Below, one piece after another: positions 24,818 to 43,498 of a stretch of DNA of 64,000 bases (positions within the stretch are counted from its first letter, which is position 1; the number at the start of each line of letters is the position of its first letter). Both the position numbers and the translations under genes were made by a program. Source of the DNA: Novosphingobium barchaimii LL02 (GTDB lineage: Bacteria; Pseudomonadota; Alphaproteobacteria; Sphingomonadales; Sphingomonadaceae); the NCBI RefSeq assembly GCF_001046635.1, contig NZ_KQ130460.1, forward strand, positions 88,135-152,134. Direction: 5' to 3'. The notes beneath the pieces are model-generated. The model was not told where the DNA came from. It saw only the letters and a list, made by a program, of their open reading frames with translations, and did no database searches.

Positions 24818-24994
24818 ATGGCCGAAACCCCCGCTGCGCCCACACGTGCCGCAGTCGCCCTGAGCGCTGCGGATATTGCCGCTGCCGCCGCCGCGCGCGG
24901 CCTGCCGATCCTGCCTGAGTGCGAGGCAGGCGTAGCTGCAAATCTTGCGTTGTTGGCGCGCCATGCCCGCACGATGAGGGGCCAGGCGGCATGA
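24818..24994 (+). CDS. hpxX: HpxX/AtzG-like small protein (DUF4089)
   Basis: A 58-residue protein ending in LPILPECEAGVAANLALLARHA, the DUF4089 pattern. In AtzG/AtzE and in Klebsiella HpxX/HpxY such a short GatC-like protein partners the amidase encoded next. Here it overlaps the amidase start by ATGA, so stoichiometric production is likely. The N-terminal third is alanine-rich and of low complexity. ATG 24818 is the best start; an earlier in-frame codon lies in the untranslated leader. It is the first gene of the purine cluster. Confidence 0.75.
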   Translation: MAETPAAPTRAAVALSAADIAAAAAARGLPILPECEAGVAANLALLARHARTMRGQAA

Positions 24995-26490: not shown

Positions 26491-27858
26491 GTGACGCAGA
26501 CACAGACCATGATGGATACCCCCAAGGCCGCGCCTTCGGGCAAGCTGGACCGCTATTTTTCGCTCACTGCGCGCGGCACCAATGCGCGTACCGAGGTACT
26601 GGCGGGGATGACCACCTTCCTGACCATGGCCTACATCGTGCTGGTCAACCCGGCGATCCTGGGCAGCGCCGGGATGCCGGTCGCTTCAGTGGCGGCGGCG
26701 ACCTGTTTCGCGGCGGCCTTCGCCTCGATCCTGATGGGCTTCGTCGCCAATGTGCCGCTGGCGCTGGCGCCGGGCATGGGCCTGAATGCCTACTTCAGCT
26801 TCACCGTCGTCCAGCAGATGGGCGTGCCCTGGCCGGTGGCGCTGGGCTGCGTGTTTCTTTCGGGCATCGCCTTCCTGGTGCTGACCCTGACCGGCGTGCG
26901 CCAACTCATCGTCTCGGCCATTCCGCAGTACCTCTTCGCAGCGGTGGCGGGTGGTATCGGCCTGTTCATCGGCTTTATCGGCCTCAAAGGCGCGGGCATC
27001 GTGGTCGCCAATCCGGCGACGTTCGTGGCGCTGGGGGACCTGAAAAGTCCCGGCGCGGCTCTGGCGCTGTTCGGCCTCGTCGTGATCGGCGCGCTGAGCG
27101 TGTGGAACGTGCGCGGGGCGATGCTGGTCGGCATCGTCGCCACGACGCTGGTCGGCTGGCTGGCGGGCATGGTCACCGTCAGCCCGGAACCCTATTCGCT
27201 AGCCGCGCTGACGGGAACGGCCTTCCAGCTGGATCTGGGCGGCGTGTTCGGCCTTTCCGGTAAGCAGGGGCTGGGCCTTCTTGAAATCCTCTTCGTGTTC
27301 CTTTTCGTCGACCTGTTCGACAATATCGGAACCCTCGTCGCAGTGACCAAGCGGGCCGGGTTGATGGACGCCCAGGGCCGCATCCCGCGCCTCAACCGCA
27401 TCCTCATCACCGATGCCGCCGCCACCATCGTCGGTTCGATGGCGGGCACTAGCACCGTGACCTCCTATGTGGAGAGCGCGGCGGGCGTGCAGGCGGGCGG
27501 GCGCACCGGCCTTACCGCTATCGTCACCGGGCTGCTGTTTCTGGCGACGATGTTCGTCGCGCCTTATGCGCAGGTGATCCCGCTGGCGGCGACCGCGCCC
27601 GCGCTCATCATCGTCGGCGGACTGATGCTGCTGCCGCTGACCGAAGTGGAATGGGAGGACCCGCTTTCGGCGATCCCGGCGTTCCTGACCGTGGCGATGA
27701 TCCCGCTGACGTTCTCGATCGCCAATGGCCTGGCCTTCGGCATCACCGCCCATGCCATCCTCAAGATCGTGCGCGGCACGATCCGCAAGAGCGACGGTTT
27801 CCTGCTGGTTCTGGCTTTGCTGTTCGTCGCCCGCTTCGTCTGGATGGGAGCCGCCTGA
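26491..27858 (+). CDS. NCS2/AzgA-type purine permease (hypoxanthine/guanine/adenine)
   Basis: A 455-residue inner-membrane transporter with 12-14 helices. The start of the conserved core (LDRYFSLTARGTNARTEVLAGMTTFLTMAYIV), PGMGLNAYFSFTVV, EILFVFLFVDLFDNIGTLVAV (substrate-site Asp/Glu) and AGTSTVTSYVESAAGVQAGGRTGL are all AzgA hallmarks. It imports purine bases with protons. GTG 26491 is a possible start, and ATG 26509 or 26512 would remove 6-7 residues. Its stop shares a base with the start of the nucleosidase gene, tying base release to base uptake. Confidence 0.88.
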   Translation: MTQTQTMMDTPKAAPSGKLDRYFSLTARGTNARTEVLAGMTTFLTMAYIVLVNPAILGSAGMPVASVAAATCFAAAFASILMGFVANVPLALAPGMGLNAYFSFTVVQQMGVPWPVALGCVFLSGIAFLVLTLTGVRQLIVSAIPQYLFAAVAGGIGLFIGFIGLKGAGIVVANPATFVALGDLKSPGAALALFGLVVIGALSVWNVRGAMLVGIVATTLVGWLAGMVTVSPEPYSLAALTGTAFQLDLGGVFGLSGKQGLGLLEILFVFLFVDLFDNIGTLVAVTKRAGLMDAQGRIPRLNRILITDAAATIVGSMAGTSTVTSYVESAAGVQAGGRTGLTAIVTGLLFLATMFVAPYAQVIPLAATAPALIIVGGLMLLPLTEVEWEDPLSAIPAFLTVAMIPLTFSIANGLAFGITAHAILKIVRGTIRKSDGFLLVLALLFVARFVWMGAA

Positions 27859-28818: not shown

Positions 28819-30396
28819 ATGAAAACCGTAACCGCCGAACACGGTATCGTCACCGCGCCGCACTACCTTGCGGCGCAGGCCGGGCGCGATGTGCTGGCCG
28901 ATGGCGGCAATGCCGTCGAAGCCTGCGTAGCGGTGGCGGCGACGCTGGCTGTCGTCTATCCGCATATGACCGGGATCGGCGGCGACGGATTCTGGCTGAT
29001 CCGCGAGCCGGACAGGCGCGTCCATTCGGTCCATGGCTGCGGCGGGTCGGCCGCCAAGGCGGACCTTTCGCTCTACGCGGGGCTTGCCGCAGTGCCGACG
29101 CGGGGGCCCTTGGCGGCGAATACGGTTGCGGGCACCATCTCGGGCTGGGCAGCTGCGCTTGCGGGGGACGGCTGCACTTTGCCGCTGGACCGTCTGCTGC
29201 GCGATGCGATCCATCATGCCGAACTGGGCGTGTCGGTGACGGCGGGCGGTGCGGGCATAGCGGCGGCCAAGGGCGGCGAACTGCGCGGCCAGCCTGGCGC
29301 CTATGCGCAGGTGTTCGAGCCTGAGGGCAAGCCGCTTACCGAAGGCGACGTGCTGCTCCAGCCGCTGCTGGCGCAAACCTTTCGCAAGCTGGCGGCGAAC
29401 GGCCTTGACGATTATTACCGCGGCGAACTGGCGCAGCTGATCGCGCATGACCTTGCCGCGCTGGGCAGTCCGGTGTCGCTGGCGGACCTCAATGCCCATG
29501 CCGCCAGCCGCCCTGATCCGCTGCATACCGCCATCACCGGCGCGGCGCTCTACAATGCAACCCCGCCGACGCAGGGCTTTGCCGCGCTGATGATCCTGGC
29601 GCTGTTCGACCGTCTCAAAGCCGATGCGCCGGACAGTTTCGATCATGTCCACGGCCTGATCGAGGCGACCAAGCAGGCGTTCCTGCTGCGCGACGTCCAT
29701 GTCGGTGATCCGGCCTATACCGACTTCGATTTTCAGGCCTTGCTGTCCGACTTGGCCGCGCTGGACGAGCTGGCTTCTCGCATCGATCCGGCAAAAGCGC
29801 TTCCCTGGCCGCAGCCTCCGCAGTGGGGTGATACCTGCTGGTTCGGCGCGGCGGACAGCGAGGGCAGGGTGGTGTCCTGCATCCAGTCCACCTACTTCGA
29901 GTTCGGCTCCGGGCTGGTCCTGCCGCAGACCGGTATCACCTGGCAGAACCGGGGCAGTTCGTTCCGCCTTTCGGAAGGTGGTTGGAATGCGCTGAAGCCG
30001 GGCCGCAAGCCTTTCCACACGCTCAATCCGGCGCTGGCCGTGTTCGAGGATGGCCGCATCATGGCCTATGGCACCATGGGCGGAGAGGGGCAGCCGCAGA
30101 CGCAGGCCGCCCTGTTCAGCCGCTACGCCCGCTTCGGGGTGGACCTGCAGGAGGCCATCAGCGCCCCGCGCTGGCTGCTGGGCCGCACCTGGGGGGAACA
30201 ATCGACCACGCTCAAGCTGGAGGACGGCTTCGACGAGGGGCTTTATGCGGCCCTTGCCGAGGCTGGCCACGACGTCGAGCGCGTGGGTCCGCTGACGGCG
30301 ACGATGGGCCATGCGGGCGCCTTGGTGCGCCTTGCGGGCGGCGGATTCGAAGGCGCTACCGATCCGCGCAGCGACGGGGGCGTGCTGGGATGGTGA
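28819..30396 (+). CDS. hpxW: Gamma-glutamyltransferase-family protein, probable oxamate amidohydrolase HpxW
   Basis: A 525-residue Ntn-hydrolase of the gamma-glutamyltransferase family. The N-terminal part has GGNAVEACVAVAATLAVVYPHMTGIGGDGFWL. The expected self-cleavage site is GDTCWFGAADSEG, where the Thr would become the N-terminal nucleophile of the small subunit. GTMGGEGQPQTQ occupies the usual oxyanion/substrate region. There is no signal peptide, unlike glutathione-degrading GGT, which fits a cytosolic catabolic enzyme. In Klebsiella the family member HpxW converts oxamate to oxalate in urate degradation. With HpxX, HpxY and HpxZ homologues in the same operon that role is the best assignment here. 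Confidence 0.78.
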   Translation: MKTVTAEHGIVTAPHYLAAQAGRDVLADGGNAVEACVAVAATLAVVYPHMTGIGGDGFWLIREPDRRVHSVHGCGGSAAKADLSLYAGLAAVPTRGPLAANTVAGTISGWAAALAGDGCTLPLDRLLRDAIHHAELGVSVTAGGAGIAAAKGGELRGQPGAYAQVFEPEGKPLTEGDVLLQPLLAQTFRKLAANGLDDYYRGELAQLIAHDLAALGSPVSLADLNAHAASRPDPLHTAITGAALYNATPPTQGFAALMILALFDRLKADAPDSFDHVHGLIEATKQAFLLRDVHVGDPAYTDFDFQALLSDLAALDELASRIDPAKALPWPQPPQWGDTCWFGAADSEGRVVSCIQSTYFEFGSGLVLPQTGITWQNRGSSFRLSEGGWNALKPGRKPFHTLNPALAVFEDGRIMAYGTMGGEGQPQTQAALFSRYARFGVDLQEAISAPRWLLGRTWGEQSTTLKLEDGFDEGLYAALAEAGHDVERVGPLTATMGHAGALVRLAGGGFEGATDPRSDGGVLGW

Positions 30397-30430
30397 CATT
30401 CAGGCTGATGGCGGTGCTGTGCGGTCGTGC

Positions 30431-30532
30431 CTTCAACAGGCTCAGCCTGATCCGGGTTGGGAGGACACCTTTCTCGACTTTGTTCAAGCGGAACACCGCC
30501 CCACCAACCCCGCTCAGGCTGAGCTTGTCGAT
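30431..30532. repeat. Degenerate copy of the CTTCGACAGGCTCAGCCTGA palindrome
   Basis: CTTCAACAGGCTCAGCCTGA (30431-30450) and CGCTCAGGCTGAGCTTGTCG (30511-30530) are inverted arms separated by about 60 bases. The same arms occur almost intact at 45596-45675. The element fills the gap between hpxW and the allantoate amidohydrolase gene inside the operon. Confidence 0.65.
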
Positions 30533-30556
30533 GCCCCCGCACGCAGGCGCCCGGCC

Positions 30557-31804
30557 ATGATCGCAGCAAACCTCCCCCCCGGCGGCGCACGCGCCGTTTC
30601 ACGCTGCGATGCGCTTGGCGCCGCGCCTTATTCCGACATGGAAGGCGGGCTGTTTCGTGGCTATCTGACGCCCGCCTACGCCGCCTCTCAGGTGGCATTG
30701 GCCGCGTGGATGGAAGCAGCCGGTATGACCGTGCGCCGGGATGCCGCCGCCAACCTCATCGGCCGCTATGACGGCCGCCTTGCCGATGCGCCGGCGCTCG
30801 TGATCGGCAGTCATCTCGATTCGGTCCGCGATGCCGGTTTCTATGACGGTCCGCTTGGCGTGATGCTGGGGATCGAGGCGGTCGCTGCGCTGCATGAGCA
30901 GGGCAGAAGAATGCCGTTCCCGATCGAGGTCTATGCTTTCGGGGATGAGGAAGGTTCGCGCTTTCCCGCCGCAATGCTGACCACGCGCGCGGTTGCCGGA
31001 ACGCTGGACGCTGCCGCGCTGGACGTAGCCGACGCCGAGGGCATAACCCTCGCGCAGGCGCTGCCCGGTTCGGCGGAGTATCTCGACGCCCGCCGCGAAC
31101 CTGCCGCCACGCTGGCCTACCTCGAAGCACATATCGAGCAAGGGCCGGTGCTGGAGGCGGACGGCCTCGCAGTCGGCACCGTCACCGGCATCGCCGCGCA
31201 GCTGCGTTACGCCGTCACCGTCAAGGGTATGGCGGGCCACGCCGGCACGACCGCGATGCGCCTGCGCCGCGATCCTCTGGCCGGGGCCGCCGCCATGATC
31301 CTCGCCGTCGAGCAGCTTGCGCGGGGGGACAATTCAGATGTCGTGGCCACGGTCGGCACGATCGAGGCGCTGCCCGGCGCGGCCAATGTCATTCCGGGGG
31401 AAGTCCGCTTCACCATCGACGTGCGCTCAGGCTCGGAAACCCGGCGCAACGGCATGGCTGAGGCGATCCTTGCCCGCCTGCGCGAGATTGCCGAAGCGCG
31501 CGCGCTGGACCTTGGCACGGTGCTGGTCCACGATCTTGCCGCCAGCCCCTGTGCACCCGCGCTGATGGACCTGATGGACGAGGCGCTCGTCGCTGCCGGG
31601 CAGCCGGTGCGCCGGCTCGTCTCGGGCGCCGGGCATGATGCAATGGTCATGGCTTCGCTGTGCCCTACCGCCATGCTGTTCATCCGTTGCACCGGCGGCG
31701 TGAGCCACAACCCTGCCGAACATGTCGAGCCTGCCGATGTCGAAATCGCGCTTCAGGTCATGCTCGGTTTCATAGATCGCCTTGGAGATTCATTTGCCGC
31801 CTGA
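30557..31804 (+). CDS. Allantoate amidohydrolase (M20 family; AllC/HpxK type)
   Basis: A 415-residue binuclear metalloenzyme. Metal ligands are visible in GSHLDSVRDAGFYDGPLGVM (His, Asp), FGDEEGSRFPA (Glu pair), AHIEQGPVLE (His) and GVSHNPAEHV (terminal His); GMAGHAGTTAMRLRRDPL lies at the dimerisation domain. It belongs to the allantoate/N-carbamoyl-amino-acid amidohydrolase group and should convert allantoate to (S)-ureidoglycine, CO2 and ammonia. ATG 30557 excludes an upstream open frame that runs through the palindromic repeat. The aminotransferase that uses ureidoglycine begins inside its 3' end. Confidence 0.87.
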   Translation: MIAANLPPGGARAVSRCDALGAAPYSDMEGGLFRGYLTPAYAASQVALAAWMEAAGMTVRRDAAANLIGRYDGRLADAPALVIGSHLDSVRDAGFYDGPLGVMLGIEAVAALHEQGRRMPFPIEVYAFGDEEGSRFPAAMLTTRAVAGTLDAAALDVADAEGITLAQALPGSAEYLDARREPAATLAYLEAHIEQGPVLEADGLAVGTVTGIAAQLRYAVTVKGMAGHAGTTAMRLRRDPLAGAAAMILAVEQLARGDNSDVVATVGTIEALPGAANVIPGEVRFTIDVRSGSETRRNGMAEAILARLREIAEARALDLGTVLVHDLAASPCAPALMDLMDEALVAAGQPVRRLVSGAGHDAMVMASLCPTAMLFIRCTGGVSHNPAEHVEPADVEIALQVMLGFIDRLGDSFAA

Positions 31805-33050
31805 ACTGGACCCCCTCGCACTCGGCCAGATGCTGTTTGGCGAGATCGACCCGCCGCAGCGCCTGCTGATGGGCCCTGGCCCGATCAACGCCCACCCGCG
31901 CGTGCTGCGCGCGATGAGCGCGGACCTGCTGGGTCAGTTCGATCCCGAGATGACCGGGTTCATGAACCAGGTCATGGCGCTTTACCGCCCGATCTTCGGC
32001 ACTCAGAACAAGTGGACGATGCTGGTCGACGGCACTGCCCGCGCCGGGATCGAGGCGGCGCTGGTCAGCCTCGTTTCGCCCGGCGACGTTGTGCTGGTGG
32101 TGAACTTCGGCCGCTTCGGCCTGCTCCTGACCGAAATTCTCCAGCGCATCGGCGCGGTGATCGAGACGGTCGAGGCGCCGTGGGGCGAGGTGGTCCCGCT
32201 GGAACGGATCGAGGCGGCCATCGCCCGCGCCCACCCCAAGGTCGTCGCCACCATTCACGGCGATACCTCGACCACCATGGCACAGCCGCTGGAAGGCTTC
32301 GGCGCATTGTGCCGGGCGGCGGGCGCGCTTTCCTACGTCGATGCGACCGCGACCATCGGCGGCATGGAACTGGCCGCAGACCGCTGGGACGTGGACGTGG
32401 TGACGGGCGGCTTGCAAAAGTGCCTCGGCGGGCCTTCCGGCTCGGCGCCGATCACCATTTCGGACCGGGCGGCCGAGCATATCGGCAAGCGCCGTCACGT
32501 CGAGCAAGGCATCCGGGGCGCCGATACCATCGACGGGCAGGGGCCGCGCATCCGCTCCAACTATTTCGACCTCGCCATGATCATGGATTACTGGTCGGAC
32601 AAGCGCCTCAACCACCACACCGAGGCGACCTCGATGCTCTACGCCGCGCGCGAATGCGCCCGCATCGTGCTGGGCGAGGGGCTTGAGGCCCGGTATGCCC
32701 GCCATGCCTCGGCGGGCCGCGCGATGACGGCGGGCCTGCGGGCGATGGGCCTCACCGTGTTTGGCGACGACCGTTACCGCATGACCAATGTGACCGGCGT
32801 CTACACCCCCGACGGCGTCGATGGCGAGGCGGTGCGGATGGCCATGCGCGAACTGTTCGAGATCGAGATCGGCACCGCTTTCGGCCCGCTTCAGGGCAAG
32901 GTCTGGCGGCTTGGCGCGATGGGTTACAACGCGATGAAGCACAAAGTGCTGCTGACGCTGGCGGCGCTGGAATCGTGCCTGCGCATGGAAGGCTTCGCGC
33001 TTCCCCTGGGCGAGGCGGTTCCGGCGGCGATGCAGGCCTGGGACGCATGA
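31794..33050 (+). CDS. pucG: (S)-ureidoglycine:glyoxylate aminotransferase (PucG/HpxJ type)
   Basis: A ~418-residue class V PLP aminotransferase. RLLMGPGPINAHPRVLRAM and GTARAGIEAALVSLVSPGD lie at the N-terminus, VDATATIGGMELAADRWDVD contains the cofactor Asp, and VTGGLQKCLGGPSGSAPI has the PLP-binding Lys. SNYFDLAMIMDYW is typical of PucG, which makes oxalurate and glycine from ureidoglycine and glyoxylate. No ATG fits: TTG 31794, six bases after GGAG (31784-31787), is preferred, with TTG 31782 as alternative. The gene overlaps its upstream neighbour by 11 bases. Serine/alanine-glyoxylate transaminase is the main alternative, made unlikely by context. Confidence 0.85.
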   Translation: MPPELDPLALGQMLFGEIDPPQRLLMGPGPINAHPRVLRAMSADLLGQFDPEMTGFMNQVMALYRPIFGTQNKWTMLVDGTARAGIEAALVSLVSPGDVVLVVNFGRFGLLLTEILQRIGAVIETVEAPWGEVVPLERIEAAIARAHPKVVATIHGDTSTTMAQPLEGFGALCRAAGALSYVDATATIGGMELAADRWDVDVVTGGLQKCLGGPSGSAPITISDRAAEHIGKRRHVEQGIRGADTIDGQGPRIRSNYFDLAMIMDYWSDKRLNHHTEATSMLYAARECARIVLGEGLEARYARHASAGRAMTAGLRAMGLTVFGDDRYRMTNVTGVYTPDGVDGEAVRMAMRELFEIEIGTAFGPLQGKVWRLGAMGYNAMKHKVLLTLAALESCLRMEGFALPLGEAVPAAMQAWDA

Positions 33051-33940
33051 GCGTGACCCGCGACCTTATTGGCTATGGCCAGAACCCGCCTGACGCGCAG
33101 TGGCCGGGCGGTGCACGCGTGGCCGTGCAGTTCGTCATCAACTATGAGGAAGGCGCGGAAAACTCCGTCCTCAATGGCGACAAGGGTTCGGAGGCTTTCC
33201 TGTCCGAGATGGTCGGCGCGGGCAGCCACCCGGACCGGGCGATGGCAATGGAGAGCCTCTACGAATACGGCAGCCGCGCCGGCTTCTGGCGCCTCCACCG
33301 CCTGTTCACCGAGCGCGGCCTTCCCGTGACCGTCTTCGGCGTGGCAAAGGCCATGGAGATGAACCCTGAAGCCGTCGCAGAGATGCTGGCCGCCGATTGG
33401 GAAATCGCCAGCCACGGCCTGCGCTGGATCGACTATCAGTACGTGGCCGAGCATGTGGAACGCGCTCATATCGCCGAAGCCATCACCCTGCACAAAAAGC
33501 TCACCGGCCAGCGCCCGCTCGGCTGGTATCAGGGCCGGACCTCGCCCAACACCGCGCGGCTGGTGGCCGAGGAGGGCGGTTTCGCCTATGACGCCGACAG
33601 CTACGCCGACGACTTGCCTTATTGGGACACGCGATTTGGGAAACCGCAGTTGATCGTGCCCTACACGCTCGACGTGAACGACATGAAGATGGTCGCGCTC
33701 AACGGCTTCACCGAGGGCGAGCAGTTCTTTCGCCACATGCGCGATACGTTCGATCAATTGCGCGAGGAGGGCGGGCGGATGATGTCCATCGGCCTGCACG
33801 CCCGGATTGCCGGAAAGCCCGGACGTGCCCGCTGGCTGGCGCGTTTCCTCGACCATGTGATCGCCAGCGGCGATGCGTGGACGGCGCGCCGCATCGACAT
33901 TGCCCGTCACTGGCAGGAAGTGCACCCTTATGCAGATTAA
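33047..33940 (+). CDS. puuE: Metal-independent allantoinase (PuuE type)
   Basis: A 297-residue member of the polysaccharide-deacetylase-like carbohydrate esterase 4 family. VAVQFVINYEEGAENSVLNGD, EYGSRAGFWRLHRLFTERGLPVTVF, EIASHGLRWIDYQYV and GWYQGRTSPNTARLV are the PuuE signature blocks; DADSYADDLPYW and SIGLHARIAGKPGRA follow. PuuE opens the hydantoin ring of allantoin to allantoate. The length equals characterised PuuE (about 300). ATG 33047 overlaps the aminotransferase stop by ATGA; the next gene starts 11 bases before its stop. Confidence 0.93.
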   Translation: MSVTRDLIGYGQNPPDAQWPGGARVAVQFVINYEEGAENSVLNGDKGSEAFLSEMVGAGSHPDRAMAMESLYEYGSRAGFWRLHRLFTERGLPVTVFGVAKAMEMNPEAVAEMLAADWEIASHGLRWIDYQYVAEHVERAHIAEAITLHKKLTGQRPLGWYQGRTSPNTARLVAEEGGFAYDADSYADDLPYWDTRFGKPQLIVPYTLDVNDMKMVALNGFTEGEQFFRHMRDTFDQLREEGGRMMSIGLHARIAGKPGRARWLARFLDHVIASGDAWTARRIDIARHWQEVHPYAD

Positions 33941-34310
33941 TGATCCGGTACTGCTCGCCGAAGTGACCCACGCTTTCCATTCCTACGAACTGGCGCTGAT
34001 GGCGGATGACGTGGCCGCGATGGACGCACTGTTCCACAATGCACCCACCACCAACCGCTACGGCGTGGGCGAAGTGCTCTATGGCATCGAGGAAATCCGC
34101 GAATTTCGCAAAGGGCGCGGCGGCTCTCCCCAGCGTAGGATCGGGCGCCTGGCGATCACCGTTTACGGCGACAGCTTCGCCACCGCCGATGCCGAATTCT
34201 TCCGCGAAGGTTCTGACCGGCGTGGCCGTCAGACGCAATCCTGGGTGAAGTTCGCGAGCGGCTGGAAGGTCGTCTCCGCCCATGTCAGCCTTGAGGGGAC
34301 AACCTCATGA
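33930..34310 (+). CDS. hpxZ: HpxZ-like protein (DUF3225, SnoaL-like fold)
   Basis: A 126-residue protein beginning MQINDPVLLAEVTHAFHSYELALMADDVAAMDALF, with NRYGVGEVLYGIEEIREFRKGR and a C-terminal QTQSWVKFASGWKVVSAHVSL. This is the DUF3225/HpxZ pattern of a small NTF2-like cone fold. HpxZ is encoded with HpxWXY in the Klebsiella oxalurate operon; its biochemical function is not established. It is coupled to puuE and uraD by overlaps on both sides. ATG 33930 was chosen for homology. Confidence 0.8.
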   Translation: MQINDPVLLAEVTHAFHSYELALMADDVAAMDALFHNAPTTNRYGVGEVLYGIEEIREFRKGRGGSPQRRIGRLAITVYGDSFATADAEFFREGSDRRGRQTQSWVKFASGWKVVSAHVSLEGTTS

Positions 34311-34747
34311 CCGCCCTGTTCGAGCACAGCCCCTGGGTTGAGGAACGCGCCGATGCGCGGCCCTCAAGCGGGGACCGTCATGCAGACCTGATGACCGTGA
34401 TGTATGCGGCCAGCGCAGAGGAGCAGCTCGCACTGATCCGCGCTCACCCCGAACTCGCTGGCAAGGCTGCGATCGACAAGACCCTGACCGATGCAAGCAG
34501 TGCCGAACAGGCCAGCGCCGGGCTGGACCGGCTGACGCCGCAGGAATTCGACCAGTTCCATGTCCTGAACGGAGCTTACCGCGACAAGTTCGGCTTTCCC
34601 TTCATCATCTGCGTGCGCCTGACCGACAAGGCGGGTATTCTCAGCGCCATGGAACGCCGCCTCGGGAACGCGCGCGAGGCGGAAATCGAGACTGCGCTCG
34701 GACAGATCGGCGAGATAGTGCGCTTGCGGCTGGAAGATGCGAAATGA
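34307..34747 (+). CDS. uraD: OHCU decarboxylase UraD
   Basis: A 146-residue 2-oxo-4-hydroxy-4-carboxy-5-ureidoimidazoline decarboxylase, giving (S)-allantoin. FEHSPWVEERA, IRAHPELAGKAA (catalytic His47) and FDQFHVLNGAYRDKFGFPFIICV (conserved Asn, Arg and Phe) are intact. The protein starts only six residues before FEHSPW, whereas most UraD proteins have about 15-20 residues more, ending in an F-x-x-L-G-G motif. The frame is closed by TGA at 34292, so the short N-terminus is real or reflects loss of an upstream start. Confidence 0.87.
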   Translation: MTALFEHSPWVEERADARPSSGDRHADLMTVMYAASAEEQLALIRAHPELAGKAAIDKTLTDASSAEQASAGLDRLTPQEFDQFHVLNGAYRDKFGFPFIICVRLTDKAGILSAMERRLGNAREAEIETALGQIGEIVRLRLEDAK

Positions 34748-36168
34748 ACGAAAGTATTGGCCTCCCCACTCTCGAGGCGCAGCTTGCCCGCGATCTTGAT
34801 CTCATCGGTTTCTATCGCCCTGAATGGGTGCGCCCGCGCGCACTGGACGGCGAGGATGTCCTTGATGTCGCAGTGATCGGCGGCGGCCAGTGCGGTCTTT
34901 CCGCCGCGCTGGGCCTTCGCCGCGAAGGCGTGACCAGCGTCATGGTCTTCGACGAGAACGTGCCCGGCTACGAAGGTCCGTGGGACACCTATGCGCGGAT
35001 GGTCACACTGCGCACGCCCAAGCACCTCAATCCCATCGACTTCGGCGTGCCTTCGCTGACCTACCGGGCCTGGTGGGAAGCGCAGCACGGCGCTGCGGGC
35101 TGGGAGGCGGTAGACAAGATCGCGCGCGGCGACTGGATGGCATATCTGCGCTGGTATCGCCGCGTGCTGCACCTTCCGGTCGAGAACGGCGCGAAGCTGA
35201 CTCGCATCGAACCGCTACCGGACAAGAACCTGCATCGCCTGCATTTCGATGGCGGCGCGGCGCGGCTGGCCCGCAAGGTCGTGCTGGCGACAGGCATCCA
35301 GGGCGGCGGCGAATGGCACACCCCGGCGATGGTGCGCGATAATCTGCCCAAGTCGCTGTGGGCGCATACCAGCGAACCGATCGACTTCGCACGGCTGCAT
35401 GGCAAGCGCATCGGCATCCTTGGCGGCGGGGCCTCGGCATTCGACAACGCCAATTACGCGCTGACCCAGGGCGTGGGGGCGGCGGAAGTATTCATGCGCC
35501 GCAAGGAACTGCCGCGCATAAACCCGATCCGCTTCATGGAACGCGTCGGCTTCACCGCCCGCTACCCGGCGCTGGACGATGCCACAAAGTATGCGGCGAT
35601 GGACTGCTTCCTTGGCCACAACCAGCCGCCCACGAACGACACGTTCGCCCGCGCCGCCGCATGGCCGGGCTTCGCGCTGCATCTGGGCGCCCCGTGGCTG
35701 GATGTGGCCGAGCATGAGGGCGGCGTGCGCGTGACCAGTCCGCATGGCTTCCACGATTACGACTTCGTCGTCGTCTCCACCGGTCTGCTGAGCGATCCCG
35801 GCCTGCGCCCCGAACTGTCCCATGTCGCCGATCTCATCGTCCGGTGGGGCGACCGGGTGACGCCTGACGGCAAGCGCAACGCCCTGATCGACGCGCATCC
35901 CTATCTTGGCGCGGCGTTCGAATTCCTGCCTCGCGATGGCGTGGACGGCGCGGCCCTGTACGGTCTGTTCGCCTTCAACTATTCCGCGCTGGTTAGCCTT
36001 GGCCTTTCCGCCTCGGCGCTATCGGGCCTGCACAATGCGCTGCCGCGCCTCGTCAAGGGCGTGGCCGACCAGCTTTTCCTCGATGACCGCGATGAACTGG
36101 TGGCCGATTTCCTCGATTACGACGAGCATGAGTTTCTGGAACAATGGCCGAAGGAGACAGCGGTATGA
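34744..36168 (+). CDS. Two-Rossmann flavin monooxygenase; candidate urate hydroxylase
   Basis: A 474-residue FAD/NAD(P)-binding oxidoreductase. The first dinucleotide fold, VAVIGGGQCGLSAALGLRREG (about 42-62), binds FAD. PGYEGPWDTYARMVTLRTPKHL resembles the substrate/FAD loop of class B monooxygenases. A second fold, IGILGGGASAFDNANYAL, about 180 residues later, should bind NADPH; the flavin-linked VVVSTGLLSDPGLRPEL follows. It is not the PHBH-type HpxO (one Rossmann fold, ~385 residues), nor uricase or PuuD. The gene overlaps uraD by 4 bases and hiuH by 4 bases, exactly where a urate-to-5-hydroxyisourate enzyme is needed. This role is inferred from position. Confidence 0.7.
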   Translation: MNESIGLPTLEAQLARDLDLIGFYRPEWVRPRALDGEDVLDVAVIGGGQCGLSAALGLRREGVTSVMVFDENVPGYEGPWDTYARMVTLRTPKHLNPIDFGVPSLTYRAWWEAQHGAAGWEAVDKIARGDWMAYLRWYRRVLHLPVENGAKLTRIEPLPDKNLHRLHFDGGAARLARKVVLATGIQGGGEWHTPAMVRDNLPKSLWAHTSEPIDFARLHGKRIGILGGGASAFDNANYALTQGVGAAEVFMRRKELPRINPIRFMERVGFTARYPALDDATKYAAMDCFLGHNQPPTNDTFARAAAWPGFALHLGAPWLDVAEHEGGVRVTSPHGFHDYDFVVVSTGLLSDPGLRPELSHVADLIVRWGDRVTPDGKRNALIDAHPYLGAAFEFLPRDGVDGAALYGLFAFNYSALVSLGLSASALSGLHNALPRLVKGVADQLFLDDRDELVADFLDYDEHEFLEQWPKETAV

Positions 36169-36497
36169 GCACCTTGTCCACCCACGTCCTCGATACCGCC
36201 CATGGCAGCCCTGCCGCAGGCATTGCGCTGGTCCTCGAAACTGAAAGCGGCACCGTGCTGTTCGAAGGGACGACCAATGATGACGGCCGCTGTCCGGGCG
36301 TGCCGGAGCTTCCTACCGGCACCTATCGCCTGAAGTTCTCGGTCGCTGCCTATTTCCGGCGGCGCGGCGTGCATCTGCCCGAGCCGCCGTTCCTTGACCG
36401 CGTGGCGATAGACTTCGGCATTGCCGACCCCGCCGGGCATTATCATGTACCGTTGCTGGTCTCGCCCTTCGGCTATTCGACCTACCGGGGCAGCTGA
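36165..36497 (+). CDS. hiuH: 5-hydroxyisourate hydrolase (transthyretin-like)
   Basis: A 110-residue HIUase. The N-terminal signature LSTHVLDTAHGSPA carries the catalytic His7, RLKFSVAAYF has the Arg region, and the terminal YHVPLLVSPFGYSTYRGS is the diagnostic YRGS tail of HIU hydrolases, which vertebrate transthyretin lacks. It converts 5-hydroxyisourate to OHCU, the substrate of UraD. It is cytosolic, with no signal peptide. It overlaps the monooxygenase by ATGA and shares its last base with the xdhA start. Confidence 0.95.
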   Translation: MSTLSTHVLDTAHGSPAAGIALVLETESGTVLFEGTTNDDGRCPGVPELPTGTYRLKFSVAAYFRRRGVHLPEPPFLDRVAIDFGIADPAGHYHVPLLVSPFGYSTYRGS

Positions 36498-37933
36498 TGG
36501 GGGCAGTACGTTTCCTTCTCGATGGCGAAGTGGTGGACCTGCCCGAGGTTGACCCTACTGCGACGCTGCTTGATCATCTGCGGTACAAGATGCGCCGCAC
36601 CGGCACCAAGGAAGGCTGCGCGGAAGGTGACTGCGGTGCCTGCACCGTGCTGGTAGGCTCTCTTGGCCCGGCCGGCGATACGGTGGACTGGCGCGCGGTC
36701 AATTCGTGCATCCAGTTCCTGCCCATGGTGAACGGCAAGGCGCTGATGACGGTTGAAAGCCTCAAGGCCGAAGACGGCGCGATCTGCCCGTTGCAGCAAA
36801 CGATGGCGGCGAACGGAAGCTCGCAGTGCGGGTTCTGCACTCCGGGTTTCGTGATGTCGCTGCATGGCCGCAGCATCGGCGCGAAGGGCTGCGAGCTGCC
36901 GGTGGCGGACGTGATCGCGGGCAACCTCTGCCGCTGCACCGGCTACGGCCCGATCCTCGAAGCGGGCGAGAATGCGCTGCCGCAGGATCGCAGCGATGCC
37001 GATCTGGCCAAGAGCCTCATGGCGCTGACGGGCGAGGGGACCTCGGGAGAATGGCAGGGACGCCGCTGGTTCGTCCCGCGCTCATCCGATGAACTGGCCG
37101 CGCTGCTGGCCGAGCATCCGGATGCCCGTCTGATCGCTGGCGCAACCGATGTCGGCTTGTGGGTGACCAAGGGGCTGCGCGAACTGGGCACTGTGATCTT
37201 CCTCGGCGACATGGCCGACCTTGCGCAGATCGAGGAAACTGACGAGGCGCTGATCCTCGGCGCGGGCGTGCGCTACGGCGATGCCCACGCAGCCATGGCA
37301 CGCCTCCACCCGGACCTTGGCGAACTGGTACGCCGTATCGGCGGCCTTCAGGTCCGCAATGCCGGAACCGTGGGCGGCAACATCGCCAATGGTTCGCCGA
37401 TCGGTGACGGTCCGCCCGCTTTGATCGCGCTGGGAGCACGGCTGACGCTGCGCAGCGTGGACGGTCGTCGCACGATGCCGCTGGAGGACTACTTCCTAGC
37501 TTACGGCAAGCAAGACCGCCGTGCGGGAGAGTTCGTGGAATCCGTGCATATCCCGCGCCCCGGCGCCGATGCGGTGATCCATATCGCCAAGCTCTCGCGC
37601 CGCTTCGACAGTGATATCTCGGCGGTTTGCGGCGCCTTCATGCTAAGCGTGACCGATGGCGCGATCACCTCGGCCCGCGTCGCCTTCGGCGGGATGGCGG
37701 CAACCCCCAAGCGCGCGGCCGCGTGCGAGGCGGCTCTCACCGGCAAACCCTTCGACGATGCCACTGTCACTGCCGCCATCGCTGCGCTCAAGACTGACTT
37801 CGAACCTTTGAGCGACGTGCGCGGTTCATCGACTTACCGTGTGGAAACTGCCGCGAACCTGCTGCGCCGCCTGTGGCTGCGGCATCAGGGAATGGCTATT
37901 TCGGTGCTGGAAGTGGAGGCCCTCGATGGCTGA
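36497..37933 (+). CDS. xdhA: Xanthine dehydrogenase small subunit (2Fe-2S + FAD)
   Basis: A 478-residue subunit fusing the iron-sulfur and FAD modules. Cluster ligands are Cys41, Cys46 and Cys49 (GCAEGDCGAC), NSCIQFL, CGFCTPG and NLCRCTGYGPIL. The FAD domain begins near residue 175, with LIAGATDVGLWVTKG and QVRNAGTVGGNIANGSPIGDGPP. It accepts electrons from XdhB and reduces NAD+. The fused layout separates it from the three-subunit Pao enzyme at 18393-22186. It overlaps xdhB by 8 bases. Confidence 0.94.
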   Translation: MGAVRFLLDGEVVDLPEVDPTATLLDHLRYKMRRTGTKEGCAEGDCGACTVLVGSLGPAGDTVDWRAVNSCIQFLPMVNGKALMTVESLKAEDGAICPLQQTMAANGSSQCGFCTPGFVMSLHGRSIGAKGCELPVADVIAGNLCRCTGYGPILEAGENALPQDRSDADLAKSLMALTGEGTSGEWQGRRWFVPRSSDELAALLAEHPDARLIAGATDVGLWVTKGLRELGTVIFLGDMADLAQIEETDEALILGAGVRYGDAHAAMARLHPDLGELVRRIGGLQVRNAGTVGGNIANGSPIGDGPPALIALGARLTLRSVDGRRTMPLEDYFLAYGKQDRRAGEFVESVHIPRPGADAVIHIAKLSRRFDSDISAVCGAFMLSVTDGAITSARVAFGGMAATPKRAAACEAALTGKPFDDATVTAAIAALKTDFEPLSDVRGSSTYRVETAANLLRRLWLRHQGMAISVLEVEALDG

Positions 37934-40238
37934 ACGCGACCCCGCATGGAAAGTGCTTCAAAAGCCGTCGCAGCCGCACGACAGCGCCCGCCTGCACGTC
38001 AGCGGTGAGGCGCGCTATGCCGATGATCTGGGCGAGCCGGCGGACATGCTCCACCTCGCTTTCGGCCAGTCTAGCGAGGCGCGTGCCCGCATCCTCTCGA
38101 TGGACCTCGACGCCGTGCGCGCGGCTCCCGGCGTGGTCGCGGTATTCACCGCCGCTGACATTCCCGGCGCCAACGACGTCAGCCCCGTGGCCGGTGATGA
38201 CCGCCTGCTGGCGGACGGCGAGGTGATCTGTCAGGGACAGTCGGTGTTCCTTGTCGCCGCGACCAGTCAGCGGGCGGCGCGATTTGCGGCACGCCTCGGC
38301 AAGATCGAATACGAGGTGCTTCCCGCCGCCATCACGATCGCCGATGCGCAGGCCGCGCAGGCGCTGATCGAACCGGCCCAGCGCATGGTGCGCGGCGATG
38401 CCGGCGCTGCGATGAACACCGCGCCGCGCCGCCTTGCCGGGCGCTTCGAGATGGGCGGGCAGGATCACTTCTACCTCGAAGGGCACGTCGCCGTCGCCAC
38501 GCCGGGCGAGGACGGGCAGATCCACGTCCTCAGCTCCACCCAGCATCCCAGCGAAGTGCAGCATCTAATCGCGCACATGCTGCACCTTTCGTCCGCCGAT
38601 GTGACGGTGGAGGTGCGGCGCATGGGCGGCGCATTCGGCGGCAAGGAGACGCAGGCCGCGCTTTTCGCCGGAGCCGCGGCACTGGTTGCCCACCGCACGG
38701 GACGGCCCGCCAAGTTCCGCTGCGACCGCGACGATGACATGGTCATGACCGGCAAGCGCCACGAATTCGAGGTCGCCTACGAAGTCGGTTTCGATGACGA
38801 AGGGCATCTGCTGGGGCTTTTGCTGCACCTCGCCTCACGCTGCGGCGCGACGGTGGACCTATCGCCCGCGATCAACGACCGCGCGATGTTCCATTCCGAC
38901 AATTGCTACTTCCTGCCCAATGTCGAGGTCGTGTCCGAAAGGCTCAAGACCAACACCGTCTCGGCCACCGCGTTCCGGGGCTTTGGCGGACCCCAGGGAA
39001 TGCTGGCGATCGAGCGCGTGATCGAAGACGTGGCCGCCCATCTGGGCGTCGATCCGCTGGAAGTGCGCGTGGCCAACCTCTACGGACCGGGGCGCGACAC
39101 CACGCCTTACGAGATGGTGGTGGCCGACAACGTCGCCCCGCAGATCATCGCGCGCCTTCGCGAAACCGCCCGCTACGACGAGCGGGTCCGCGCCGTGGCG
39201 GCCTTCAATGCCGCCAATCCGATTCTAAAAAAGGGCATTGCGCTCACCCCGGTTAAGTTCGGCATCAGTTTCACCACCACCCATCTCAACCAGGCAGGTG
39301 CGCTGGTGCATGTCTATGCCGACGGCTCGATCCAGGTGAACCACGGCGGCACCGAAATGGGGCAGGGCCTTTATGTGAAGGTCGCTCAGATCGTGGCTGA
39401 CGTCTTCGCCGTGCCGCTGAGCGCCGTGCGGATCACCGCAACGCGCACCGACAAGGTGCCCAACACATCGGCGACGGCGGCGAGTTCCGGCGCCGACCTC
39501 AACGGCATGGCGGCTTACAACGCAGCCGCAGCGATCCGTGAGCGGCTGACCGAATTTCTCGCCCGTACTTACGCTTGCAGTGGGGGCGACGTGCATTTCA
39601 CCCCCGGCGGTGTGCTGGTCGGGGCCGAGACGCTGACCTTCGGGCAAGTCGCGCGCAAGGCGCACATAGGGCGCATATCGCTATCCTCGACCGGCTACTA
39701 CGCCACGCCGGGCATCGACTACGACCGCTCGGTCTTCAAGGGGCGGCCGTTCTACTACTTCGCCTATGGCGCCTCCGTCAGCGAAGTGGTGATCGACACC
39801 CTGACCGGCGAGCACAAGGTGCTGGCGGTGGACATCCTCCACGATGTCGGCCGGTCGCTGAACCCGGTGGTCGACATGGGCCAGATCGAAGGCGGTTTCA
39901 TCCAGGGGCAGGGTTGGCTGACCACCGAGGAACTGGTTTACGACGCCAGAGGCCGTCTGCTCACCCACAGCCCGGCGACTTATAAGATCCCGACCGCATC
40001 GGACCGCCCGAAACACTTCACCGTAACCTTGTGGGACGGTGAGAACGTGGAGCCGACTATCAACCGCTCCAAGGCGGTGGGGGAGCCGCCGTTCATGCTG
40101 GCGAATTCGGTCTTCTGTGCGCTGAGCCGCGCGGTGGCGGCGACTGCGCCTGACAAGCGCGCGATCCCGCCGCTGGATGCCCCCGCAACGCCGGAACGCA
40201 TCCTCAAGGCCATCGCCGGACACAGGGCCGACCCATGA
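37926..40238 (+). CDS. xdhB: Xanthine dehydrogenase large (molybdopterin) subunit
   Basis: A 770-residue molybdenum subunit that hydroxylates hypoxanthine and xanthine to urate. RMGGAFGGKETQAALFA, SATAFRGFGGPQGMLAIE (purine-positioning Arg), NHGGTEMGQGLYVKVAQI (cofactor loop) and KAVGEPPFMLANSVFCAL with the catalytic Glu are all present. Length matches Rhodobacter capsulatus XdhB (777). ATG 37926 lies in the end of xdhA and gives MAERDPAWKVL; an earlier in-frame start within xdhA was rejected. Confidence 0.94.
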   Translation: MAERDPAWKVLQKPSQPHDSARLHVSGEARYADDLGEPADMLHLAFGQSSEARARILSMDLDAVRAAPGVVAVFTAADIPGANDVSPVAGDDRLLADGEVICQGQSVFLVAATSQRAARFAARLGKIEYEVLPAAITIADAQAAQALIEPAQRMVRGDAGAAMNTAPRRLAGRFEMGGQDHFYLEGHVAVATPGEDGQIHVLSSTQHPSEVQHLIAHMLHLSSADVTVEVRRMGGAFGGKETQAALFAGAAALVAHRTGRPAKFRCDRDDDMVMTGKRHEFEVAYEVGFDDEGHLLGLLLHLASRCGATVDLSPAINDRAMFHSDNCYFLPNVEVVSERLKTNTVSATAFRGFGGPQGMLAIERVIEDVAAHLGVDPLEVRVANLYGPGRDTTPYEMVVADNVAPQIIARLRETARYDERVRAVAAFNAANPILKKGIALTPVKFGISFTTTHLNQAGALVHVYADGSIQVNHGGTEMGQGLYVKVAQIVADVFAVPLSAVRITATRTDKVPNTSATAASSGADLNGMAAYNAAAAIRERLTEFLARTYACSGGDVHFTPGGVLVGAETLTFGQVARKAHIGRISLSSTGYYATPGIDYDRSVFKGRPFYYFAYGASVSEVVIDTLTGEHKVLAVDILHDVGRSLNPVVDMGQIEGGFIQGQGWLTTEELVYDARGRLLTHSPATYKIPTASDRPKHFTVTLWDGENVEPTINRSKAVGEPPFMLANSVFCALSRAVAATAPDKRAIPPLDAPATPERILKAIAGHRADP

Positions 40239-41155
40239 CACAATGGATCGGCTGGCTGCGGCGGCTGGACAAGGATGTGCCGACCGCGATGGTCTCCATT
40301 CTCGCGAGCGAGGGTTCGGCCCCGCGCGGCGCCGGCACGCGGATGCTGGTGACGGCGCAGGGCCAGGAAGGCACCATCGGCGGCGGCCAGCTGGAATACC
40401 GGGCCGTCGATCAGGCGCGCGCGGTGCTGGACCATGCACCGGGGTCGTGGCGGGTGCAGGACTATCCGCTAGGGCCGCTGCTGGGCCAGTGCTGCGGGGG
40501 GCGGGTGCGGCTGCTGGTGGAACACCTTGATCCCGCCGCGCTCGGCTGGTTGCATGATGCCGAGCCGGGCCGGATGCTGGCGACTAGGCTGGAGAAAGCC
40601 GGGCCGCTGCGCACCATCTTCGACCGTGAAACCGCCACACGCCAGTCCGCACGAGGGCCCAGGCCCGAGGCAGGCGCGCGTATGGTAGAGCCGGTGGGTG
40701 AGCGTCCGCGCCCTGTCTACTTGTTCGGTGCCGGCCATGTCGGGCAAGCCATCGCGCGGCATATGACTGGCCTGCCGCTGCATCTTGCGTGGTTCGATAC
40801 CCGGCCTGAGCAGGGCGGCATCGACGGCGTCACCGTCGTGCCTGAGGAAGAGATCGCGGCATGCGTGGAGGAAGCCCCGGCGGATGCCGCGATCCTGATC
40901 CTCACCCACGACCATCCGCTGGACTATCATCTCACGCTCACCGCGCTGGCGCGCGCGCGCGCGGCCTTTGTGGGACTGATCGGTTCATCGACGAAGATCG
41001 CCCGCTTCCGCTCGCGACTCGCGGCGGACGGAATTTCGTCCGAGGCGCTGAAACGCCTCACCGCGCCGATCGGAGTGCCGGGCGTCATGGGCAAGGAGCC
41101 CGATGTGATCGCCATCTCCGTCTGCGCGCAGCTTCTGCAATTGAGAGGGAAATGA
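40235..41155 (+). CDS. xdhC: Xanthine dehydrogenase accessory protein XdhC
   Basis: A 306-residue molybdenum-cofactor chaperone that binds sulfurated cofactor and inserts it into XdhB. SILASEGSAPRGAGTRMLV, GTIGGGQLEYRAVDQA and GQCCGGRVRLLVEHL form the N-terminal XdhC/CoxI block; the C-terminal Rossmann part has VYLFGAGHVGQAIARHM and AFVGLIGSSTKIARFRSRL. It overlaps xdhB by ATGA. It may also mature the Pao enzyme, for which no PaoD was found nearby. Confidence 0.93.
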   Translation: MTQWIGWLRRLDKDVPTAMVSILASEGSAPRGAGTRMLVTAQGQEGTIGGGQLEYRAVDQARAVLDHAPGSWRVQDYPLGPLLGQCCGGRVRLLVEHLDPAALGWLHDAEPGRMLATRLEKAGPLRTIFDRETATRQSARGPRPEAGARMVEPVGERPRPVYLFGAGHVGQAIARHMTGLPLHLAWFDTRPEQGGIDGVTVVPEEEIAACVEEAPADAAILILTHDHPLDYHLTLTALARARAAFVGLIGSSTKIARFRSRLAADGISSEALKRLTAPIGVPGVMGKEPDVIAISVCAQLLQLRGK

Positions 41156-41198: not shown

Positions 41199-42488
41199 AT
41201 GACGGGCCGCGCCTACCGCGCCGAACTCCTGTCGGTAGCCCATGACCCTCGCGATGCCGGCCCCGAAGCTGTGCGCCACGAACCCGATGGCCTGCTGGTC
41301 ATCGAAGACGGCATCGTCATCGCCAGAGGCGCCTATGCCGACCTCGCCCCCCGATACCCCGGCGTGCCGATCGAAACGCTGCCTGGCCTTGTTGTTCCGG
41401 GCTTCATCGACGCGCACGTCCACTACCCCCAGACCGACCGCATTGCCTCCCACGGCGAACAACTGCTCGACTGGCTGGAAAAGCATATCTTCCCTGCCGA
41501 GAAAGCATTCGTCGACAAGGCCCACGCCGACGCGGTCGCCGCTTTCTTCCTTGATGAACTGCTGCGCAATGGCACCACGAGCGCGCTGGTTTTTCCAACG
41601 GTCCACGAACAGTCGGTCGACGCCCTGTTCGAGGCCGCGCTGAGCCGCCGGATGCGGATCGTCTCAGGCAAAGTCCTGATGGACCTCGGCCCCGAGGGCC
41701 TGAACGATACTCTCCCCTCCGGCCGCGCCGAAAGCGAAGCGCTGATCCGCCGCTGGAAGGGCAGAGGCCGCCTTGGCTATGCGGTGACGCCGCGTTTCGC
41801 CTTGGCCTCCAGCGACGAGCAACTCGCCGATGCAGGTGCCTTGCTGGCCGAGCATCCCGAAGTGCTGATGCATACCCACCTGTCGGAAAACCTGCACGAG
41901 ATCGCCGCAGTGGCAGGGCGCTTCCCCGATAGCGCCGACTACCTCGACGTCTACGACCGCTTCGGCCTGGTCACGCCGCGATCGGTCTTCGCCCACGGCG
42001 TCCACCTGTCGGAGCGGGCTTGCATGCGCCTCCACGACAGCGGGGCAGGCGTCGCGGTCTGCCCGTCGTCGAACCTGTTTCTCGGCTCGAGCCATTTCAA
42101 TTTCGGACAGGCCGATCGCTGTAGCCTGCGCCTTGGCCTGGGCACAGATATTGGCGCAGGAACTTCATTCTCGATGCTGCGGACTTCGGGCCTTGCCTAT
42201 CAGGCCGCGCTGGCCCGCGAGGACAGGCTAGACCCCTTTCGCGCCCTCTACCTCGCGACAGCAGGCTCTGCCGCGCTGCTTCACATCGAAGATCGCGTGG
42301 GCGGGCTGGAGCTCGGGCAGGAGGCCGATTTCGCCGTGCTCGACTGCGCCGCTACGCCGCTTCTCGCCCGCCGCACGCACGAGGCAGACCTTGCGACTCG
42401 CCTTTTCGCGCTCCAGATACTGGGCGACGATCGCGCCATCGCCCGCACTTATGTCATGGGCGAATGTGCGTGGAAAAGGACACCATGA
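41199..42488 (+). CDS. guaD: Guanine deaminase
   Basis: A 429-residue amidohydrolase converting guanine to xanthine and ammonia. Zinc ligands: PGFIDAHVHYPQTD (His-x-His), HTHLSENLHEI (His) and LGTDIGAGTSFSMLRT (Asp). VCPSSNLFLGSSHF and ASHGEQLLDWLEKHIFPAE are GuaD-specific blocks. Its product feeds xanthine dehydrogenase encoded just upstream. Its stop overlaps the next deaminase by ATGA. Confidence 0.93.
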   Translation: MTGRAYRAELLSVAHDPRDAGPEAVRHEPDGLLVIEDGIVIARGAYADLAPRYPGVPIETLPGLVVPGFIDAHVHYPQTDRIASHGEQLLDWLEKHIFPAEKAFVDKAHADAVAAFFLDELLRNGTTSALVFPTVHEQSVDALFEAALSRRMRIVSGKVLMDLGPEGLNDTLPSGRAESEALIRRWKGRGRLGYAVTPRFALASSDEQLADAGALLAEHPEVLMHTHLSENLHEIAAVAGRFPDSADYLDVYDRFGLVTPRSVFAHGVHLSERACMRLHDSGAGVAVCPSSNLFLGSSHFNFGQADRCSLRLGLGTDIGAGTSFSMLRTSGLAYQAALAREDRLDPFRALYLATAGSAALLHIEDRVGGLELGQEADFAVLDCAATPLLARRTHEADLATRLFALQILGDDRAIARTYVMGECAWKRTP

Positions 42489-43498
42489 CCGAGACAGATT
42501 TCATCGCCGGCCTTCCCAAGGCCGAACTCCACCTCCACATCGAGGGTAGCCTTGAGCCGGAACTGATGTTCCAGCTTGCCCAGCGTAATTCAGTGGCCAT
42601 CCCTTACGCCTCGGTGGAGGACGTGCGCGCCGCTTACGATTTCTCCAACTTGCAGGACTTCCTCGACATCTACTACGCAGGCGCCGCCGTGCTGCGTGTC
42701 CGGCAGGATTTCCACGACCTTGCGATGGCCTATTTCACGCGCGCGGCGGCAGATGGGGTGCTCCACGCTGAACTCATGTTCGACCCCCAGACCCACACTG
42801 ACCGGGGCATTGCCTTCGAGGAAGTGATCGAGGGGCTGCTGTCCGCCATGGCCGCCGCCGAGGCGCAGTTCGGCATGACCTCGCAGCTCATCCTCTCGTT
42901 CCTGCGCCATTTGTCCGAGGAAGCGGCCTTTGCGACGCTGGAAGCGGCGGAGCCGTGGCTGGACCGCATCACGGCGGTAGGCCTCGACAGCTCCGAAGTG
43001 GGCCACCCGCCTGAGAAATTCGCCCGCGTTTTTGCGGCTGCCCGCGGCAGGGGCCTGAAGATCACCGCCCATGCGGGTGAGGAAGGTCCGCCGGCCTACG
43101 TGCATGAGGCGCTGGACCTGCTCAAAGTCGACCGCATCGACCACGGCAATCGTGCTTTGGAGGACGATGCGCTGGTCGCCCGCCTGGCGGCCGAGGGCAT
43201 GACGCTTACCGTCTGCCCGCTGTCGAACCTCAAGCTGTGCGTGGTGGACGACCTGGCCGACCATCCGCTTGACCGGATGCTCGCACTAGGCCTCAAGGCG
43301 ACGGTGAATTCCGACGATCCGGCCTATTTCGGTGGCTATGTGGCGGACAACTACCGCGCCGTGGCGGAGGCGCGGGGTCTGTCGCGCGGCGATCTCGTCA
43401 CGCTGGCGCGCAACAGTTTCACCGGCTCGTTCCTTACGCCTGAAGCGATCGCGGCGAATCTGGAGAAACTGGACGCTTACGCGGCCTCGCAGGGCTAA
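42485..43498 (+). CDS. Adenosine-deaminase-family protein, probably adenine deaminase
   Basis: A 337-residue TIM-barrel deaminase. KAELHLHIEGSLEPELM (zinc His pair), ITAHAGEEGPP (third His), RIDHGNRALED and TVNSDDPAYFGGY (catalytic Asp pair) are conserved. The stretch YDFSNLQDFLDIYYAGAAVL and the AYFGGY ending are characteristic of the adenine deaminase (Aah1-like) branch rather than adenosine deaminase. That fits a cluster working on free bases after nucleosidase action; the product would be hypoxanthine. It is the last gene of the purine cluster. ATG 42485 overlaps the guaD stop. Confidence 0.85.
   Translation: MTETDFIAGLPKAELHLHIEGSLEPELMFQLAQRNSVAIPYASVEDVRAAYDFSNLQDFLDIYYAGAAVLRVRQDFHDLAMAYFTRAAADGVLHAELMFDPQTHTDRGIAFEEVIEGLLSAMAAAEAQFGMTSQLILSFLRHLSEEAAFATLEAAEPWLDRITAVGLDSSEVGHPPEKFARVFAAARGRGLKITAHAGEEGPPAYVHEALDLLKVDRIDHGNRALEDDALVARLAAEGMTLTVCPLSNLKLCVVDDLADHPLDRMLALGLKATVNSDDPAYFGGYVADNYRAVAEARGLSRGDLVTLARNSFTGSFLTPEAIAANLEKLDAYAASQG

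Follow-up and report, generated by a model that had tools for sequence, protein, structure and literature searches.

A predicted HpyO-type urate hydroxylase encoded between uraD and hiuH in a Novosphingobium purine-degradation operon

The window analysed here, a stretch of 64,000 nucleotides from Novosphingobium barchaimii LL02 (contig NZ_KQ130460.1), carries the purine-degradation operon of a Novosphingobium-like bacterium. Within it, an open reading frame (ORF) at 34744..36168 on the + strand, here named hpyO, starts with ATG and encodes 474 residues. From its reading frame, Pfam matches, homologues, synteny and AlphaFold2 fold, the product is predicted to be a class B flavin monooxygenase-like urate hydroxylase dependent on flavin adenine dinucleotide (FAD) and reduced nicotinamide adenine dinucleotide or its phosphate (NAD(P)H). 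The gene shares four bases (ATGA) with the preceding uraD, which encodes OHCU decarboxylase (34307..34747, + strand; TIGR03164, 174 bits against a cut-off of 96). The gene that follows, hiuH, encodes 5-hydroxyisourate (HIU) hydrolase (+ strand; TIGR02962, 116 bits against a cut-off of 87); its ORF is listed from 36144, the likely start being an ATG at 36165 (36165..36497) that likewise gives a four-base ATGA overlap with the gene upstream. The protein contains two dinucleotide-binding motifs, VIGGGQCGL at residues 44-52 (34873..34899, + strand), presumed from the Pfam matches to be the FAD site, and ILGGGASAF at residues 225-233 (35416..35442, + strand), which by its role in the class B fold is the presumed NAD(P)H site.

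Three Pfam families match the protein over their cut-offs, NAD_binding_9, Pyr_redox_3 and Lys_Orn_oxgnase, and neither Uox (PF01014) nor PuuD (PF06181) is among its Pfam matches. The HpxO model NF033623, which has a cut-off of 500 bits, does not appear among its NCBIfam matches at E 0.001. No NCBIfam family exceeds its cut-off for the window protein, for one Xanthomonas and one Paenibacillus homologue or for a more distant plasmid homologue (L005), and the protein looks unrecognised because none does so for the window protein or that Xanthomonas homologue. The one close relative with an annotation, on a Priestia plasmid, is named “NAD(P)/FAD-dependent oxidoreductase.” For the AlphaFold2 model, the window protein was aligned with 36 of 80 scanned loci (the other 44 were omitted so that the alignment stayed small and varied); the model has a mean predicted local distance difference test score of 86.1 and a predicted template modelling score of 0.86, with low confidence at residues 81-84 and 186-190. 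It matches 819 solved structures at E 0.001 or better. The best 50 of these (E 2e-18 to 8e-16, 14-21% identity) are class B N-hydroxylating and flavin-containing monooxygenases, the former including SsDesB, PvdA, SidA and KtzI. By sequence, only weak matches were obtained in the PDB, the best to flavin monooxygenases. The stretch F-x-G-x-x-x-H is a fingerprint of the flavin-containing and Baeyer-Villiger class B monooxygenases; the exact pattern, looked for between the two folds, has no match in the window protein. In the modelled fold, the ornithine/lysine N-hydroxylases PvdA and SidA and a flavin-containing monooxygenase of Stenotrophomonas would share with it the two-dinucleotide-domain class B arrangement, but these enzymes act on other substrates and their identity is low (14-21% among the best 50 matches). 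An earlier note, made from the letters of this DNA, had described a 474-residue protein with both motifs lying between UraD and HIU hydrolase with 4-base overlaps, which the ORF, the motifs and the 36165 start confirm; its assignment of the protein to the class B architecture, and not to HpxO, agrees with the structural matches and with the lack of a match to NF033623.

HpyO of Xanthomonas, published in 2012 (Michiel et al., as cited by others), is described in the available text of PMC4562309 as an FAD/NAD(P)H-dependent urate hydroxylase that is non-homologous to HpxO. Relatives of the window protein were collected by a genome scan with a five-member alignment as query; of 546 that were confirmed, the best 80 were kept. 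The closest of these 80 comes from a Novosphingobium (94% identity; 95% in its genome, G005), and four named Xanthomonas loci among them show 59% identity over residues 4-472. All four have the order uraD-hpyO-hiuH, with PuuE, HpxZ, an aminotransferase and AllC upstream, and their genomes gave no Uox match, no PuuD match and no HpxO over the cut-off. Across the genus, one full-length match at 58-60% identity is present in 30 of 35 genomes, another genome (G218) has it in three pieces, and four have none. UraD is found in exactly the 31 genomes with a homologue, the same four lacking both. With a single full-length homologue in most genomes of the genus, hardly any gene but this one could be the published Xanthomonas enzyme, provided that the two are homologous. 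By genomics, the window protein and HpyO of Xanthomonas would be orthologous: the window protein is 58-60% identical over its full length to that single copy, has the uraD-X-hiuH slot in common with the four loci, carries the two dinucleotide motifs that binding of FAD and NAD(P)H would require, and is not HpxO-like. One genome of the genus, G209, has two extra weak matches (33-34% identity), and the three matches in G218 (G218:C1:87057-88461) reflect either decay of the gene or an error in sequencing. EC 1.14.13.113 and KEGG K22879 are identifiers that we take to be linked to HpyO. In the accessible part of one paper, a table row ties a COG2072 gene fragment of Caballeronia to K22879, “FAD-dependent urate hydroxylase” (EC 1.14.13.113; PMC13210998), which lends weak support to urate hydroxylation. 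The accessible part of an Acinetobacter plasmid study calls its own enzyme HpxO, and there HpyO appears once, in a reference title (PMC10117892).

The distribution of the gene was followed in two further sets of genomes. The first consists of 149 genomes from the family to which the nearest relative (G005, included by construction) belongs; the homologue and UraD searches each drew these genomes by the same rule, and the printed handles agree, the full lists of misses not being printed. Any match at E 0.001 was found in 24 genomes, at 60% identity or more in seven, at 35% in one, and short and weak in 16. UraD is present in exactly the seven genomes with a homologue at 60% identity or more; without G005, six of 148 coincide, for which a random draw that ignores kinship gives a chance of 7.6e-11. 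Uox was found in none of the 149 (the HpxO search did not cover these genomes). The second set derives from 50 of the 80 loci, giving 48 gene-bearing genomes searched (L044 and L074 were left out), of which organism names place 27 in Bacillota and 21 in Pseudomonadota. UraD (in two pieces in G030) and HiuH are present in all 48, and HpxO exceeds its cut-off in none. Below the cut-off, the HpxO model has matches in 44 of the 48 and also in 12 of 14 control genomes, its top score in the gene-bearing genomes being 205 bits against the required 500.

Synteny and phylogenetic profile strongly support urate hydroxylation as the predicted activity of this copy, and the window gene is almost certainly hpyO, encoding a protein that would hydroxylate urate. 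Of the co-occurrence with uraD and hiuH that the earlier note had proposed as a check, the part concerning uraD is seen in both sets: gene and uraD fall in the same 7 of 149 family genomes, with Uox in none, and in the same 31 of 35 Xanthomonas genomes. The urate role that it had suggested is likewise well supported, but its view of an unrecognised, new non-homologous urate-oxidising enzyme fails: the kind of enzyme is already known since 2012 as HpyO, according to the text available (PMC4562309).

Several observations weigh against this assignment. Membership in HpyO is reached by way of Xanthomonas genomics, not from the published HpyO sequence itself. Uox is present in five of the 48 gene-bearing genomes, all of them Bacillota (5 of 27). 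Bacillota account for 40 of the best 80 loci, and in 31 of these 40 neither uraD nor hiuH lies within 3 kilobases (kb) by the queries used. PF06181, the PuuD domain, gives partial, weak matches in three of the 48 gene-bearing genomes and partial matches in 45 of the 149 family genomes, 43 of which are without UraD, the other two (G029 and G069) belonging to the seven that have it. The three more distant homologues L005-L007, which are encoded on plasmids and about 42% identical, show neither uraD nor hiuH within 8 kb. In the window itself, the earlier claim that the cluster lacks Uox, PuuD and HpxO holds for the 20 proteins scanned, none of which matched at the thresholds used; the other window ORFs and the rest of the genome were not scanned.

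This limited search of the window's own genome, together with the large size of the family and the position of its three plasmid members outside purine clusters, would suit an alternative in which the window protein, although encoded in the operon, is some other flavin monooxygenase acting in purine or amine metabolism, and the oxidation of urate falls to an enzyme encoded elsewhere in the genome. Such an arrangement is very unlikely in view of the exact coincidence of close homologue and uraD in both the family and the Xanthomonas sets, of the absence of Uox from the 149 family genomes, and of the absence of HpxO over its cut-off from the 48 gene-bearing ones. The PF06181 matches, whose summed pieces within a single frame reach up to about 60 bits, could instead be taken to mean that urate is oxidised by a membrane uricase of the PuuD type, with the flavoprotein as an accessory. 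This is scarcely credible: taken singly, the best pieces reach 26-41 bits over about 63-93 of 295 positions, in frames mostly of 190-240 residues (a few of 271-362), and 45 of the 48 gene-bearing genomes are without any match. Because the pieces are weak, part-length and in small frames, and 43 of the 45 matching family genomes are without UraD, they seem to belong to another, smaller membrane protein. This small protein, mostly of 190-240 residues, matches part of PF06181 over the cut-off in the 45 family genomes (for example at G183:C1:514650-514934), and could mislead uricase annotation.

Assignment to HpyO is also consistent with the gene order around the scanned relatives. In 39 of the 40 non-Bacillota loci the order is uraD-hpyO-hiuH within 3 kb, the remaining one (L037) having no uraD detected near the gene. 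A protein encoded on a Niveispirillum plasmid (L004:10001-11407), with only 45% identity, likewise lies between uraD and hiuH; it is a divergent member, which the tree pairs with a non-urate relative. In that tree, the rows with at least 55% identity, 84 in all and the window protein among them, cluster together (100/99), and the four homologues at 42-45% stand outside this group. The tree is rooted at the midpoint and leaves many internal nodes unresolved, and a long-branch warning attaches to the join between the 84-row group and the four distant homologues. Synteny and tree together indicate that the urate association follows the subfamily and not the whole superfamily, and the position of L005-L007 outside purine clusters suggests that the wider family has other roles. 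Family members consistently occurring without purine genes, which the earlier note had regarded as evidence against a urate role, are not seen among the 48 gene-bearing genomes searched (UraD and HiuH in 48 of 48); the three homologues at about 42% identity lie outside purine clusters. On one contig labelled Actinobacteria (L025), the gene, here 71% identical, lies in a cluster of sphingomonad type, probably as the result of a binning error.

By contrast with the non-Bacillota loci, both uraD and hiuH lie within 3 kb in only nine of the 40 Bacillota loci, in three different orders; on the Priestia plasmid the order is transporter-uraD-uraH-gene. Somewhere in the genome, uraD and hiuH are nevertheless both present in each of the 27 Bacillota genomes searched. 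In two of the 31 loci with neither gene nearby (L066 and L077), the uraD-hiuH pair seemingly shares a contig with the gene at a distance of about 17-30 kb, in a comparison of positions that presumes that contig numbers correspond. The Bacillota genes are mostly not beside uraD-hiuH, yet both occur in 27 of 27 genomes and 22 of these 27 are without Uox, which implies that the gene has probably spread between phyla and would serve many species of Paenibacillus and Bacillus-like bacteria as the default uricase. A literature search combining HpyO with urate oxidase, Bacillus and Paenibacillus gave no paper. In a Paenibacillus locus (L049), the neighbours of the gene encode an APH-type kinase, a UbiD-like decarboxylase and pyruvate kinase. 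Three Bacillota genomes (G017, G024, G047) have an HpyO-type gene and also Uox fused with UraD in one open frame of 518-525 residues, which would give them two kinds of uricase per genome.

The genes around uraD-hpyO-hiuH in the window, all on the + strand, belong largely to the same pathway. Downstream lie xdhA, encoding the xanthine dehydrogenase (XDH) small subunit (36497..37933; TIGR02963), xdhB for the Mo subunit (37839..40238; TIGR02965), whose actual start, judging from the overlap with xdhA, is probably inside the listed ORF, xdhC for an XDH accessory protein (40235..41155; TIGR02964), and genes for guanine deaminase (41199..42488; TIGR02967) and adenosine deaminase (42464..43498; TIGR01430). 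This directly downstream block distinguishes the window from the four Xanthomonas loci, in which it was not seen by the queries used. Upstream are genes for an HpxZ-type (AtzH-like) oxalurate catabolism protein (33873..34310; NF033625), the allantoinase PuuE (32975..33940; TIGR03212), allantoate amidohydrolase (30311..31804; NF006775, 575 bits against a cut-off of 479) and an AtzE-type amidohydrolase, a possible oxalurate amidohydrolase (24919..26370; TIGR02715). All of these proteins, as well as UraD and HIU hydrolase, exceed NCBIfam cut-offs. A class V aminotransferase (31782..33050; PF00266), presumed from its position to be of the ureidoglycine-glyoxylate type, is over the Pfam cut-off, yet no NCBIfam equivalog reaches its own. 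The neighbourhood also encodes a xanthine/uracil permease-family transporter (26491..27858; PF00860, 141 bits), a gamma-glutamyltransferase-like protein (under the NCBIfam cut-off) and a nucleoside-phosphorylase-superfamily protein. Compared with plasmids, the operon DNA gave partial matches, the best to a Sphingobium plasmid.

From the modelled fold, FAD would be bound in the first Rossmann fold and would be reduced by hydride transfer from NAD(P)H held in the other. In class B enzymes, the reduced flavin reacts with O2 to form a C4a-hydroperoxide. By analogy with this general chemistry, the hydroperoxide may hydroxylate urate at C5, yielding 5-hydroxyisourate and water, and HiuH and UraD, whose genes flank hpyO and overlap it by 4 bases each, would carry the unstable 5-hydroxyisourate on to S-allantoin. 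The same reaction is attributed to HpxO of Klebsiella, which belongs to a different hydroxylase family, and the same pathway step to PuuD and Uox, which are unrelated proteins (PMC4562309, in the text available).

NAD(P)H-dependent urate hydroxylases, which give water and not peroxide, are of some applied interest. Due to the lack of an NCBIfam family over cut-off, genomes with uraD and hiuH can seem to be without a uricase, and HpyO is probably a much commoner bacterial uricase than annotation suggests, occurring in sphingomonads, xanthomonads and a large Bacillota clade (half of the best 80 loci). In sphingomonads, the missing urate step of purine degradation would be supplied by HpyO, a kind of enzyme that has been known since 2012.
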